A stretch of 44,076 nucleotides of DNA from the NCBI GenBank assembly GCA_022616535.1, contig JAKEEM010000043.1, positions 1 to 44,076 on the forward strand, read 5' to 3'. The DNA is from Chlorobiota bacterium. GTDB taxonomy: Bacteria; Bacteroidota; Ignavibacteria; Tepidaquicellales; OLB5. Both the position numbers and the translations under genes were made by a program. The notes below the pieces were generated by a model, which saw only the letters and a list, made by a program, of their open reading frames with translations, ran no database searches and was not told where the DNA came from. Below, piece after piece: positions 1,738-33,882 of this stretch (positions within the stretch are counted from its first letter, which is position 1; the number at the start of each line of letters is the position of its first letter).

Positions 1738-2742
1738 CTAAATATTTAGACCGACTTTTTCCCAAACTTCTGCTTTTGTAGCGGATGCAAACTCACGTGC
1801 CTTTTGAGCTCCGGTTTTTAATATATCCTTAACAAAATCCAGATTTTGACACAGCCGTTCACGTTCATCCCTGAAAGGTTTAAAGTGCTCTAGCATTTTT
1901 TCAAGCAAAAGCTTTTTGGCATCACCGTAACCAAAACCACCGGCTATGTATTTGTTGGCGAGTGACTTCTTTTCATCCTCAACTGCAAAAAGAGAATATA
2001 GCTTAAATACAGTGTCCATATCTGGATTTTTGGGGGCTTCAACAGGAGTTGAATCAGTTACAATACCCATAACCTGTTTTTTGATGACTTTCTCATCGGC
2101 AAACATGTTTATCACATTTCCGTAACTTTTACTCATCTTATTAACACCATCAGTGCCAACAACAAAGCCACGCAATTCATGTATCATAGGTTCGGGAAGC
2201 TTAAAAACATCACCGTAAATGCGGTTGAACTTGCCCGCTATATCACGTGCGATTTCTACATGCTGTTTCTGATCTTTGCCCACGGGCACAATATCAGGTT
2301 TGTATATTAATATATCAACTGCCATAAGCACCGGATAGTCAAACAGCCCAGCGGTTGCATCTTTTGAGCCTTTTGTTACAGCATCTTTATAAGCATGTGC
2401 TTGTTCAAGCATGCTGACTGGGGTAACACAATTAAGAACCCAAGTTAACTCGGCATGTTCAGGTATATCACTCTGCCTGAAAAAAACTGTTTTATCTGGG
2501 TCAAGGCCTATTGCAAGATAGTCAAGAGCGAGATTAATCACCATATCCTTCAGTTTCTTTTGGTCTCTTACGGTTGTGAGTGAGTGCAGGTCAGCAATAA
2601 ATATGAAGCTTTCCATCCCGCTTTGCTGAAGCTCAACATGCCCTTTCATTGCTCCGAAGTAATTACCAAGGTGCTGAATACCGCTTGGCTGAACTCCTGA
2701 CAATATGCGTTTTTTAACGGAAGATTTCGACGTAGAAGGCAT
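1738..2742 (-). CDS. trpS: Tryptophanyl-tRNA synthetase
   Basis: Class I aminoacyl-tRNA synthetase that charges tRNA-Trp in the cytoplasm. At 334 residues it has normal bacterial TrpS length. The HIGH-type motif appears as PSGIQHLGN (residues 19-27) and the KMSKS motif as KMSKSYGN near residue 205; VLNCVTPVSMLEQAHAYKD and GKDQKQHVEIARD are typical TrpS segments. The ATG overlaps the stop of the upstream nuoJ-like gene by one base (TAATG), which implies translational coupling. No hairpin terminator is visible in the 66 bp before the histidine kinase gene. Confidence 0.96.
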   Translation of the reverse strand: MPSTSKSSVKKRILSGVQPSGIQHLGNYFGAMKGHVELQQSGMESFIFIADLHSLTTVRDQKKLKDMVINLALDYLAIGLDPDKTVFFRQSDIPEHAELTWVLNCVTPVSMLEQAHAYKDAVTKGSKDATAGLFDYPVLMAVDILIYKPDIVPVGKDQKQHVEIARDIAGKFNRIYGDVFKLPEPMIHELRGFVVGTDGVNKMSKSYGNVINMFADEKVIKKQVMGIVTDSTPVEAPKNPDMDTVFKLYSLFAVEDEKKSLANKYIAGGFGYGDAKKLLLEKMLEHFKPFRDERERLCQNLDFVKDILKTGAQKAREFASATKAEVWEKVGLNI

Positions 2743-3260
2743 TACTCAAACTTTTTCTGTGCCAGAACAATTGCACCCACAATCCCTGCAAGAAGGATTA
2801 ATGAAACAAGCTCAAACGGAAAGGAATATGTTGTATATAATTCTCTGCCAACCGATTCAATGGTGCCCTGTGTTTCAGCAGCAGGGTTCAATGTTTTGTG
2901 CTTTCCCAAAAATCCGTAATATGCGGTTATCGCAAGTGAGCTGAACAGAAGCAATGCCATTATTACTGCAGAGAGCTTTTTATACGAAATGTTCTCTGTT
3001 AGCTTCTTATCATCCTGAAGGTTTAAAAGCATAATCACGAAGAGAAATAACACCATAATAGCCCCGGCATAAACGAGTATCTGTATAATGGCGACAAACT
3101 GAGAGCGCAGCATCAGGTATATTGCCGAAACCGAGAAAAAGTTTAATATCATAAACAATACGCTTACTACAGGACTGCGTCTGGTTATCATCATTACTGC
3201 AGAGCCGAGTGCTATCGCCGCAAAAGTAATTATAACGATATTTTCAAATGTCCACTGCAT
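2742..3260 (-). CDS. nuoJ: NADH-quinone oxidoreductase subunit J
   Basis: Membrane subunit of respiratory complex I, in the proton-pumping arm. The 172-residue protein has five hydrophobic segments and the conserved NuoJ stretch ILVYAGAIMVLFLFVIMLLN (helix 3). Its length and C-terminal helix (FELVSLILLAGIVGAIVLAQ) fit the family. In most genomes nuoJ lies between nuoI and nuoK. Here it is preceded by tRNA-Leu and its remnants and followed directly by trpS, with no other nuo gene in the window. It is either a split-off subunit gene or a second copy. Confidence 0.88.
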   Translation of the reverse strand: MQWTFENIVIITFAAIALGSAVMMITRRSPVVSVLFMILNFFSVSAIYLMLRSQFVAIIQILVYAGAIMVLFLFVIMLLNLQDDKKLTENISYKKLSAVIMALLLFSSLAITAYYGFLGKHKTLNPAAETQGTIESVGRELYTTYSFPFELVSLILLAGIVGAIVLAQKKFE

Positions 3261-3280
3261 TTCAGTTAAACAATCCTCTT

Positions 3281-3350
3281 GCCCAGAGTCCCGACTTGTC
3301 GGGACACCGAGGTATTACCCCGATCCCGCTTTAAGCAGGACGCGTCTAAA
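3281..3350 (-). pseudogene. Decayed tandem copy 1 of tRNA-Leu with palindromic arms
   Basis: This block aligns with the intact tRNA-Leu that starts 240 bp to the right. It keeps the 3' acceptor strand (gcccaga on the plus strand), the variable-arm sequence accgaggtattacccc and the gcgtcta of the D-arm side. It lacks 21 bp that would encode the 5' acceptor strand; the deletion lies between two cta triplets of the intact gene. The T arm is replaced by an inverted repeat at 3288-3305 (GTCCCGA/TCGGGAC) and the anticodon arm by tcccgctttaagcagga. It cannot form a complete tRNA. Confidence 0.75.
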
Positions 3351-3401
3351 TTTGTAATGAAAGCTACCATCTTTGATTTTCTTGAAACATTTAAGCCTTG
3401 T

Positions 3402-3470
3402 GCCCAGAGTCCCGACTTGTCGGGACACCGAGTTATTACCCCATCCCGCTTTAAGCGGGACGCATCTAAA
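3402..3470 (-). pseudogene. Decayed tandem copy 2 of tRNA-Leu with palindromic arms
   Basis: Second member of the approximately 120-bp tandem array (spacing 121 and 120 bp). Like copy 1 it lost the 21 bp carrying the 5' acceptor strand and has the same replaced T arm. Its anticodon arm is a perfect 5-bp stem (TCCCG/CGGGA, read on the minus strand) with a 7-base loop CTTAAAG that still contains the TAA anticodon. Both sides of the stem differ from the intact gene yet still pair. It would be co-transcribed downstream of the real tRNA. Confidence 0.75.
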
Positions 3471-3520
3471 TTTGTAATGAAAGCCATCATGTTTGATTTT
3501 CTTGAACCATTTAAACCTCG

Positions 3521-3607
3521 TGCCCAGAGCCGGAATCGAACCGGCACCGAGGTATTACCCCGACAGGATTTTAAGTCCTGCGCGTCTACCAATTCCGCCA
3601 TCTGGGC
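3521..3607 (-). tRNA. tRNA-Leu (anticodon TAA)
   Basis: Read on the minus strand, the acceptor strands GCCCAGA and TCTGGGC pair perfectly over 7 bp. The anticodon arm is CAGGA-CTTAAAA-TCCTG with anticodon TAA, a long type II variable arm is present, and the T arm is GCCGG-TTCGATT-CCGGC. The discriminator base is A, as expected for tRNA-Leu; CCA is not encoded. The tRNA reads the UUA codon. It is followed downstream by two decayed copies of itself. Confidence 0.95.
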
Positions 3608-3743
3608 TAAATTTCGGGACTTAAAATACATAAATAGCAAAAATTTACCATTATTTCTAACCTTAAATTCAGTTGCATGACGGAAAAAGGGACTTTGAGT
3701 TTTTAAACCGTTTTCATCAAAAATAACACGGCAGAAAAAAAAC

Positions 3744-3819: not shown

Positions 3820-3834
3820 TCCGCCTGAGGCGGA
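3820..3834. repeat. Short palindrome TCCGCCTGAGGCGGA
   Basis: Seven-base arms (TCCGCCT/AGGCGGA) around a single G. It is much more GC-rich than the surrounding intergenic DNA and belongs with the other isolated palindromes in this window (14196-14213, 17668-17697, 23539-23557, 33747-33765). Confidence 0.6.
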
Positions 3835-14173: not shown

Positions 14174-14213
14174 CTCCCCTTTGGCAAAGGGGAGTGTCCG
14201 CCAGCTGGCGGAC
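14174..14213. repeat. Composite of two perfect palindromes
   Basis: CTCCCCTTTG/CAAAGGGGAG forms 10-bp arms around one G (14174-14194). It is followed after one base by the 18-bp perfect palindrome GTCCGCCAG/CTGGCGGAC (14196-14213). A gaggggt just after it repeats part of the first arm. The block is far more GC-rich than its surroundings and lies upstream of ada. Confidence 0.75.
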
Positions 14214-23538: not shown

Positions 23539-23557
23539 CTGCCTGCAGCAGGCAGGC
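23539..23557. repeat. 19-bp palindromic element, intergenic copy
   Basis: CTGCCTGCAGCAGGCAGGC, with 8-bp perfect arms around one A. It lies between the second ATP-grasp gene and the GNAT gene. The identical 19 bases occur at 33747-33765, where they break a gene. Confidence 0.85.
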
Positions 23558-23571
23558 GGCAACTACAATTT

Positions 23572-24666
23572 TCACAAAACATTCCAGCGTTTTAATGCAT
23601 ACCTTATAATCTGCTGAATAAGGTAGCCGTACTCCCAGCCATACGCCTTAGCGCTGCGGGTGAATCCTGTGTCCTCGGGTGCATCTGAGGCAATATCGGG
23701 ATTCGGATTCAGCTCCAATACATAGGGTATACCGTTTTTGAATCTCATATCAACCCTTGCGTAGTCGCTTGCTCCAAGCAGACGGTAAACCTTTTTCGCC
23801 GTTTCCTGAATTATCCTCACTTCATCATCGGTTAAGTTTGGTGCGGGACAAAATGCAGTTGAATTTTCGAACTCAACAGTTTTATACATCCATTTAGCGT
23901 TGTATGTAACAATTTTCGGGTAATCTTCAGGAAGACCTGAAAAATCTATCTCGCTGATTGGAAACGTAATTAATTCGCCTGCCTTGCCGTCAGGCAGGTC
24001 ATTACCAACAACGGAAACGTTGATTTCCCTGCCGTCAATATATTCTTCAACCAGTGCAGGCTGTTTATGTTCATCAAGAACGTATTCAATTCTCTGCTTC
24101 AACGCCAATTCATTTGTTACTACAGATTCATTTTCTATCCCAATGCTTGCATCTTCACGCGACGGCTTTACAATCAGCGGAAATTTATGTCCGTTTAAAT
24201 GGATATTACTCGTATTAGCAACCAGATGTTTTGCAGTTGGAATACCATTTTGGTTCAGGATTGTTTTAACAAGCGGCTTGTTAAGAGCCATGCCAAGAGT
24301 GAACGCCCTTGCGCCGGTGTATGGAATTTTCAAAAGTTCAAACAACCCTGCTATGTTCATCTCCTGCGTAGAGTCGCCGTCAACACTTTCACACAAATTA
24401 AAAATTATATCGGGGCGGTTTTCGTTTAATTCATTTATTAATTTATTTATATCAAGTGCAACCGGAACAAGCTTTGTATTATGCTCAAGCGGTGCCAAAG
24501 CGCGTTCAACGCTTCGCACTTCATCAAGCACGCCGTATTCGCTCATATCAATTTCTTCAGGAACTGAATCTATATCAATATGCTTCCCCGGCAAATCATA
24601 AATTGGACCTTTTGCATATTGAACAGGGTCATTGAAAACCAGTGATATGTTTAATTTTTTATTCAC
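23572..24666 (-). CDS. D-Ala-D-Ala-ligase-like ATP-grasp enzyme, with in-frame palindrome insertion
   Basis: 364-residue ATP-grasp ligase that should join an amino-acid carboxylate to an amine through an acyl phosphate. The Ddl-like N-terminal region has NLCESVDGD and the substrate loop LLKIPYTGARAFTLGMALNK; the ATP-grasp core has PLIVKPSRE (K167), LVEEYIDGREINVSV and the metal site YARVDMRF...VLELNPNPD. Residues 223-229 (DLPDGKA) are encoded by a GC-rich palindrome and are missing from the neighbouring paralogue, which reads GN-GE at that place. The gene starts with GTG, overlapping the paralogue's stop by one base (TAGTG). Its substrate is unknown; operon context suggests beta-lysine. Confidence 0.88.
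   Translation of the reverse strand: MNKKLNISLVFNDPVQYAKGPIYDLPGKHIDIDSVPEEIDMSEYGVLDEVRSVERALAPLEHNTKLVPVALDINKLINELNENRPDIIFNLCESVDGDSTQEMNIAGLFELLKIPYTGARAFTLGMALNKPLVKTILNQNGIPTAKHLVANTSNIHLNGHKFPLIVKPSREDASIGIENESVVTNELALKQRIEYVLDEHKQPALVEEYIDGREINVSVVGNDLPDGKAGELITFPISEIDFSGLPEDYPKIVTYNAKWMYKTVEFENSTAFCPAPNLTDDEVRIIQETAKKVYRLLGASDYARVDMRFKNGIPYVLELNPNPDIASDAPEDTGFTRSAKAYGWEYGYLIQQIIRYALKRWNVL
23978..23998. repeat. Palindrome inserted in frame in a coding region
   Basis: Arms CCTGCCT/AGGCAGG around tgccgtc. Together with its flanks (23980-24000) it codes for the extra residues DLPDGKA of the ATP-grasp protein. The outer arms are the same as those at 17668-17697. Confidence 0.8.
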
Positions 24667-33594: not shown

Positions 33595-33882
33595 GGATTT
33601 TAAATTAAGCTTAAAAGATTCAACACCGCCTAAAAATTTAAATCTGCTTCTTCTTGCGCTATATGGTATGATGCCAAAAATAACTGGCATAAGGCGCACG
33701 AAACCGCTCAGGAAATTGCAAATAAAGAGGGCTCCTGGATTCATGCCTGCCTGCAGCAGGCAGGCTTATTTGCACAGGAAAGAAGGTGATTTTATCAACG
33801 CTTCTTACTGGTATTCAAAGGCGGGAAGGGAAATGCCTCGGAACCTTTTGAAAGAGAATGGGAATTTATATTAAGGAGCTGA
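33584..33882 (+). pseudogene. Small conserved gene broken by a palindromic insertion and two other frameshifts
   Basis: Pieces of one protein are spread over two frames. Frame a gives IEDFKLSLKDSTPPKNLNLL; frame b gives WYDAKNNWHKAHETAQEIAN and KEGSWIHA; frame a resumes with YLHRKEGDFINASYWYSKAG; frame b ends SEPFEREWEFILRS*. I recall intact relatives in Bacteroidetes that read LKALWYDAKGDW...WIHAYLHRKEGD...YWYSRAG in one frame. Lesions are a two-base gain near 33663, the 19-bp palindrome at 33747-33765 between WIHA and YLHR, and a one-base change near 33833. Two plus nineteen bases equals 21, so the first two nearly cancel. Confidence 0.8.
33747..33765. repeat. 19-bp palindromic element, gene-disrupting copy
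   Basis: Identical to 23539-23557 and part of the 21-bp perfect palindrome GCCTGCCTGC-A-GCAGGCAGGC (33745-33765). Removing exactly these 19 bases restores attcatgc-ttatttgc, which encodes the expected IHAYL. Confidence 0.85.

Follow-up and report, generated by a model that had tools for sequence, protein, structure and literature searches.

The question raised by this locus is why the arms of dead tRNA copies should have gained perfect pairing instead of losing it. In the window, i.e., the whole stretch of 44,076 nucleotides analysed (contig JAKEEM010000043.1 of the Chlorobiota bacterium assembly GCA_022616535.1), two partial copies follow an intact tRNA-Leu gene, and both carry palindromes in place of tRNA arms. 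The features of the array were located as follows.

3520..3607, minus strand: intact tRNA-Leu gene with anticodon UAA, from which the copies derive (ARAGORN and Rfam RF00005, 63 bits)
3469..3520, unstranded: spacer from copy 2 to the intact tRNA-Leu, part of the ~120-bp tandem unit (direct reading)
3401..3468, minus strand: tRNA-Leu remnant copy 2, nearer the parent; a 21-bp deletion has removed its 5′ acceptor strand and some of the D arm (direct reading, alignment)
3444..3460, unstranded: palindrome TCCCGCTTTAAGCGGGA replacing the anticodon arm of copy 2, 17 nt like the original arm, loop centre kept
3409..3426, unstranded: palindrome GTCCCGACTTGTCGGGAC replacing the T arm of copy 2, 8-bp stem and 2-nt loop (palindrome scan)
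3349..3400, unstranded: spacer from copy 1 to copy 2 (direct reading)
3280..3348, minus strand: tRNA-Leu remnant copy 1, the more distant one, with the identical 21-bp deletion (direct reading, alignment)
3324..3340, unstranded: TCCCGCTTTAAGCAGGA replacing the anticodon arm of copy 1, one stem mismatch (direct reading)
3288..3305, unstranded: palindrome GTCCCGACTTGTCGGGAC replacing the T arm of copy 1, 8-bp stem and 2-nt loop (palindrome scan)
2742..3260, minus strand: nuoJ-like ORF downstream of the array (ORF list; a homologue stands next to tRNA-Leu(UAA) in family members)

The original prediction described two copies at 120-bp spacing, both without the same 21 bp between cta triplets, and direct reading bears this out. 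The remnants start (TGCCCAGAG) at 3280 and 3401 and the equivalent point in the intact gene is 3521, so that the spacing is 121 and 120 bp, of which the spacers take 52 bp. The stretch missing from both remnants between two CTA triplets is CCAATTCCGCCATCTGGGCTA (21 bp); its loss takes away the acceptor strand on the 5′ side together with the 5′ part of the D arm, while both remnants retain the 3′ acceptor strand and the sequence of the variable arm. The end coordinate of 3609 given for the remnants takes in the intact tRNA. Two ORFs of 124 and 133 aa, at 3266-3640 (minus strand) and 3279-3680 (plus strand), cross the remnants and the tRNA and look spurious. A plasmid collection searched with the array gave no match.

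The T-arm stems of both remnants read GTCCCGAC..GTCGGGAC. The anticodon-arm stem is TCCCGC..GCGGGA, or TCCCGCTTTAAGC(G/A)GGA across both copies. The description of these arms as perfect palindromes stands for both T arms and for the anticodon arm of copy 2 and needs correction for the anticodon arm of copy 1, which has one mismatch. As had been noticed, the loop of copy 2 still reads CTTAAAG on the tRNA strand, against CTTAAAA in the intact gene, with six of the seven parental bases retained. Since both remnants carry one common palindrome pair, the swap of the T and anticodon arms probably preceded the second duplication at the locus.

Were these palindromes found elsewhere in the genome, as had been supposed? 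The answer differs between the two arms. TCCCG(N1-9)CGGGA, the word of the anticodon arm, occurs at 64 sites in the home genome compared with 9 for the reversed control, and it exceeds its control in all 39 genomes searched. The 16-nt core of GTCCCGACTTGTCGGGAC has two copies in the genome, both in the tRNA-Leu array, and no second site that might have been the donor of the T-arm palindrome was found across the 2.9 Mb. Among the TCCCG matches listed, 50 sites exclusive of those in this window, nine are no more than 300 bp from a tRNA gene, where 0.48 would be expected (P about 1e-9, home genome). Other strong palindromes in the window, broadly of this type, are CTCCCCTTTGGCAAAGGGGAG adjoining GTCCGCCAGCTGGCGGAC (14174-14213), CTGCCTGCAGCAGGCAG (23539-23555), GCCTGCCTGCAGCAGGCAGGC (33745-33765), and TCCGCCTGAGGCGGA (3820-3834).

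There is strong support for the proposed link of this palindrome family to tRNA arms, as the link recurs in dead copies of many tRNAs and in several species. Remnants were detected by BLAST near intact genes, using search matches and sequence stretches around tRNA genes, at the tRNA loci of the home genome and nearly all of those of G001, G003, G005, and G022; the systematic scan covered the strand of the parent, and most of the genomes compared are draft assemblies. The five genomes gave 61 candidate partial tRNA copies, a few of them weak matches or adjoining pieces of one array, so that there are fewer independent remnants than candidates. Of the 61, 46 contain a perfect GC-rich hairpin with a stem of at least 6; the corresponding figures were 7.7% for windows drawn at random from these loci, 5% for remnants after shuffling, and 8 of 61 for the intact parents. 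Tandem copies in many sets carry identical or near-identical palindromes, and hence the copies outnumber the independent events.

In most cases, what was replaced coincides exactly with a tRNA arm. The anticodon arm has been swapped at exact boundaries in remnants of Ile-gat, Ile-tat, Gly, Gln, Leu, Pro, Ala, and Arg tRNAs, most often for TCCCG..CGGGA. Inexact swaps were seen in a Cys remnant, where the anticodon 3′ strand through the T 5′ strand is gone, and in an Asp remnant, where 8 nt are gone and 17 gained. Inserts in the T loop follow GGTTC, and inserts in the D arm are exemplified by CCTGCCTGCAGCAGGCAGG, 19 nt added cleanly to a Gly remnant. Arrays of at least three remnants with similar hairpins per unit were found in G003 for Cys, Ile, Leu, and Ser (loci L335, L337, L099, and L353). 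An apparently functional tRNA-Ser(CGA) of the home genome (about 1455-1541 of L005, C5:11121-11207) has the family palindrome GTCCCGCTTGCGGGAC as its variable arm where relatives have GTAGCGGCAACGCTAC or GCAGAGGTAACTCTGC; to judge from these sequences, it is a possible hairpin swap in a working tRNA. No report of bacterial tRNA arms replaced by palindromes was found in the open-licence literature searched.

The ORF at 2742..3260 is one which we take, after its family, to be nuoJ (NADH dehydrogenase subunit J). Its homologue beside tRNA-Leu(UAA) in family members fixes the orthologous locus for comparison. Genome contigs scanned with nuoJ yielded distant relatives alone, at 34-50% identity, which place the organism near Ignavibacteria. 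Remnant hairpins are present at this locus in G000, G003, G004, G005, G006, and G014, while no remnant was found in the sequence read at the locus in G001, G002, G007, G008, G010, and G013. Occupancy of homologous Leu(UAA) sites is thus patchy among family members, and the remnants of the relatives have their own, differing spacers. In G014, three remnants all have the anticodon arm TCCCGCTTTTGGCGGGA and two have the T arm TCAGGCAGCCGCCTGA; the third retains the tRNA T arm and is an intermediate in which one arm has been replaced. T-arm palindromes of the form GTTCGGC..GCCGAAC were found in the Leu remnants of G003 and G005, and the anticodon-arm palindromes TCCCGCTTTAGCGGGA and TCCCGCATTGCGGGA in those of G004 and G006, respectively. 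Relatives have remnants of their own at the orthologous locus, in which the same arms have been swapped for differing palindromes.

Hairpins of this kind also occupy sites other than tRNA arms. The 22-nt double hairpin TCCCGAAGGGACTCCTTTGGAG was found, with at most two mismatches, at 57 places in nine genomes (reversed control 0), and compensated variants are present. In the 32 contexts that were read, it lies in remnant T loops or, in many others, at the tips of larger unrelated palindromes, for example CCCCTCTCCT[..]AGGAGAGGGG; an outer stem of at least 5 surrounds it in 15 of the 32, compared with 5.7% of random positions. One element has therefore inserted at tips. The Val remnants of G003, G007, G011, and G013 show one site with differing hairpins: six of them stand between GAGCG (or GAGTG) and CAAGATGTC, two being in tandem copies of one genome that have an identical 3′ flank. 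The T loop of a tRNA-Val remnant in G011 (L389) holds four successive hairpins, TCCCGAAGGGA, CTCATTTGGAG, CCCGAAAGGGG, and CTGCTTCGCAG. Within the window, the 21-nt palindrome CCTGCCTTGCCGTCAGGCAGG (23978-23998) lies in frame in a D-Ala-D-Ala-ligase-like gene and encodes LPDGKAG; as solved homologues of the protein have gaps around these residues, the sequence suggests an in-frame hairpin insertion. Rickettsia palindromic elements similarly stand in frame in protein genes, and the palindromes described here appear to be set apart from them by being far shorter and of many sequences.

Small GIY-YIG genes, candidates for the enzymes involved, are linked to tRNA genes. Over four genomes, 19 of 34 lie at most 500 bp from a tRNA gene (P about 1e-25), including five of five that stand beside tRNA genes in the home genome. 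At the Asp, Gly, and Leu(caa) loci of the home genome and at Pro in G001, the tRNA is separated from its remnant by a GIY-YIG gene; the order at the Pro locus (L267) is tRNA, GIY-YIG, a Pro remnant fused to the GIY-YIG end, and a second GIY-YIG. Among solved structures, the nearest relatives of these nucleases are UPF0213 proteins and SLX1, a structure-specific nuclease. In phage, the GIY-YIG protein SegB is required for tandem amplification of the tRNA-segB unit, in which the tRNA 5′ end has microhomology with the segB 3′ end (PMC13096335). By analogy, the tRNA-linked nucleases may drive the tRNA duplications, a view to which the SegB precedent lends inferential support. No GIY-YIG gene is left at the tRNA-Leu array of the window. 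At C40:16474-17052 (L132, L135) of the home genome, a tRNA-Met lies between two small GIY-YIG genes of the same strand whose sequences differ.

We consider it fairly probable that the remnants are partial tRNA copies, dead and in tandem, in which short GC-rich hairpins of a contagious family have taken the place of the arms. The process would begin with tandem duplication of the tRNA locus and truncation of the extra copy, which is seen in the sequence, the likely trigger being breakage of the tRNA gene by the small tRNA-linked GIY-YIG nucleases. Hairpins would then insert at, or swap with, places that form hairpins in DNA, namely the anticodon arm, the T loop, the D arm, and palindrome tips. 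Such an event would be tolerated in an unconstrained spare copy and lethal in a sole working copy, and this tolerance may explain why the hairpins concentrate on dead tRNAs. At an occupied site, one hairpin would displace another, and by such turnover pairing would be strengthened instead of lost; a swapped arm would be spread by further tandem copying. The donors would be the TCCCG..CGGGA-type palindromes dispersed in the genome, and the hairpins would move as elements. Single-strand template switching or structure-selective cleavage at extruded hairpins appears the most plausible chemistry of the swap. Of the two explanations originally left side by side, replacement by mobile palindromes and selection for structured RNA, the former is favoured because differing hairpins share boundaries between near-identical flanks and because one double hairpin also occupies the tips of non-tRNA hairpins. 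The resemblance of hairpin loops to the anticodon loops of their parents, beyond that in shuffled pairings, also speaks for this replacement. Duplication, truncation, and replacement of arms by hairpins recur over tRNAs and species, and the sequences favour both insertion at existing hairpins and their exchange.

A more specific scheme is tentative and, in our estimate, unlikely. It would make the nucleases part of an exchange system, in which SLX1-like tRNA-linked GIY-YIG enzymes would cut extruded hairpins of tRNA genes and amplify the locus, the breaks would be healed with short hairpins, and the dead copies would archive the swaps.

Selection for structured RNA would have the remnants co-transcribed with the tRNA and their hairpins kept or strengthened as a trailer, decoy, or processing signal. 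At the Ile-gat site pairing stays while sequence changes (TCCCGCCGGAGGCGGGA, TCCCGCCAAAGGCGGGA, and TGGCGCCGTAGGCGCCA), as this explanation would predict, and the remnants collected share the strand of the parent, which is the strand that was searched. Anticodon-loop bases are also retained in some loops: the loops are nearer to those of the parents than in shuffled pairings (p 0.003-0.008, 18 hand-collected cases, several of them orthologous). Nevertheless, remnants occur upstream or downstream of the parent with differing halves missing, they are absent from the Leu locus of several family members, the same double hairpin stands in unrelated palindromes, and a stem mismatch persists in copy 1 of the window. 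Selection for a structured RNA downstream of the tRNA thus found no positive support, and we regard it as rather improbable.

Template switching alone would perfect imperfect arms by arm-to-arm copying (quasipalindrome correction) with no mobile element. A report (PMC8794818) credits it with creating and maintaining perfect hairpins in a single step, and the symmetry axis and part of the loop are often retained in the swapped arms. However, both arms of the new stems are foreign, mostly TCCCG/CGGGA across tRNAs and species, and local arm copying cannot provide a word that is enriched elsewhere in the genome. As a complete explanation it is improbable in our judgement, though template switching may polish stems after a first change.

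In a REP/RAYT scheme, an IS200-type tyrosine transposase (Y1_Tnp) acting on single-stranded hairpins would move the palindromes, with tRNA arms as look-alike targets. Y1_Tnp (RAYT-like) genes gave five matches in the home genome and are present in 11 of 15 genomes, and their count tracks palindrome density (Spearman 0.80, p 0.0003; within the family 0.66, p 0.05), a correlation that is confounded by ancestry. The scheme predicted that a genome with no RAYT would have no palindromic remnants. This failed in G007, where the Y1_Tnp search gave no match yet nine remnants were found, most with palindromes and including the TCCCG type; RAYT is either not necessary or was lost or missed there. By eye, no constant GTAG or CGTC tag was apparent at the foot of remnant palindromes: the two copies in the window have no GTAG, and the foot reads CG|TCCC in several tRNAs, owing to a tRNA G that precedes the arm, and CA|TCCC in others. 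We consider such a transposase distinctly improbable as the agent of these replacements.

Attachment-site scars, i.e., tRNA 3′ ends duplicated by integrating islands or phages and then decayed, have a precedent in integration at tRNA genes, from which partial copies of these genes are known to arise (PMC9897764), and many remnants do retain the 3′ part, but several retain the 5′ part instead, new perfect palindromes are not a product of decay, and the close tandem spacing with no integrase-like ORF or island recognised beside the array led us to reject this highly improbable reading. A CRISPR-like or T-box reading was also dropped, as spacers and a leader are lacking and a tRNA gene is the parent each time.

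Replacement of arms by contagious hairpins would have a consequence for how such sites are read. Compensated base pairs are usually taken as proof of a functional RNA. Here, hairpins whose sequence changes while pairing is kept occupy apparently dead genes, so that structure covariation could arise through mutation alone. Since the arrays derive from a known parent, recur at many independent sites, and can be compared among close relatives, the mechanism by which short palindromes spread becomes directly testable, which is an issue for mitochondria and for bacterial REPs as well. The tRNA-linked GIY-YIG genes bring to bacterial chromosomes an arrangement lately described in phages.

Among known systems, the mitochondrial repetitive hairpin-forming elements (RHE), double-hairpin elements (DHE), and GC clusters are short GC-rich hairpins, single or double, patchy between close relatives, which merge into larger hairpins and sometimes lie near tRNA genes (PMC2800124, PMC4478555); palindromes flanking Neurospora tRNA genes are also on record (Yin 1981, as cited in PMC4478555). 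The hairpins described here similarly form single and double units at many dispersed sites (64 against a control of 9, and 57 against 0) with patchy occupancy of the homologous Leu(UAA) sites. Unlike the mitochondrial elements, they reside on a bacterial chromosome, replace whole arms of dead tRNAs at fixed structural positions, and occupy hairpin tips; as the 2.9 Mb genome is bacterial and not organellar, they are compared with those elements and not classed among them. With bacterial REP/RAYT systems (PMC2817692, PMC3733652) they share short dispersed palindromes and Y1_Tnp in most carriers, and some non-tRNA copies resemble ATTCCCGC..GCGGGAAT repeats. They differ in their many sequences, no constant tag was seen by eye in the remnants, and we do not claim REP membership since the carrier G007 has no RAYT match. 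The resemblance to SegB (PMC13096335) lies in a GIY-YIG gene adjoining a tRNA and in tandem tRNA and GIY-YIG units with a tRNA fused to the nuclease end, as at the Pro locus of G001, an arrangement absent from the tRNA-Leu array of the window. Here, by contrast, the units lie on chromosomes of bacteria related to Ignavibacteria, the additional tRNAs are dead copies with hairpins in them, and the nuclease is a candidate known from its genes. As in template-switch mutation (PMC8794818), perfect stems could arise and persist by mutation and not by selection, but switching alone does not account for a foreign stem word shared by the two sides. The closest kinds are therefore the mitochondrial hairpin elements or GC clusters and the bacterial REPs, and in behaviour the hairpins of this locus resemble the mitochondrial ones.
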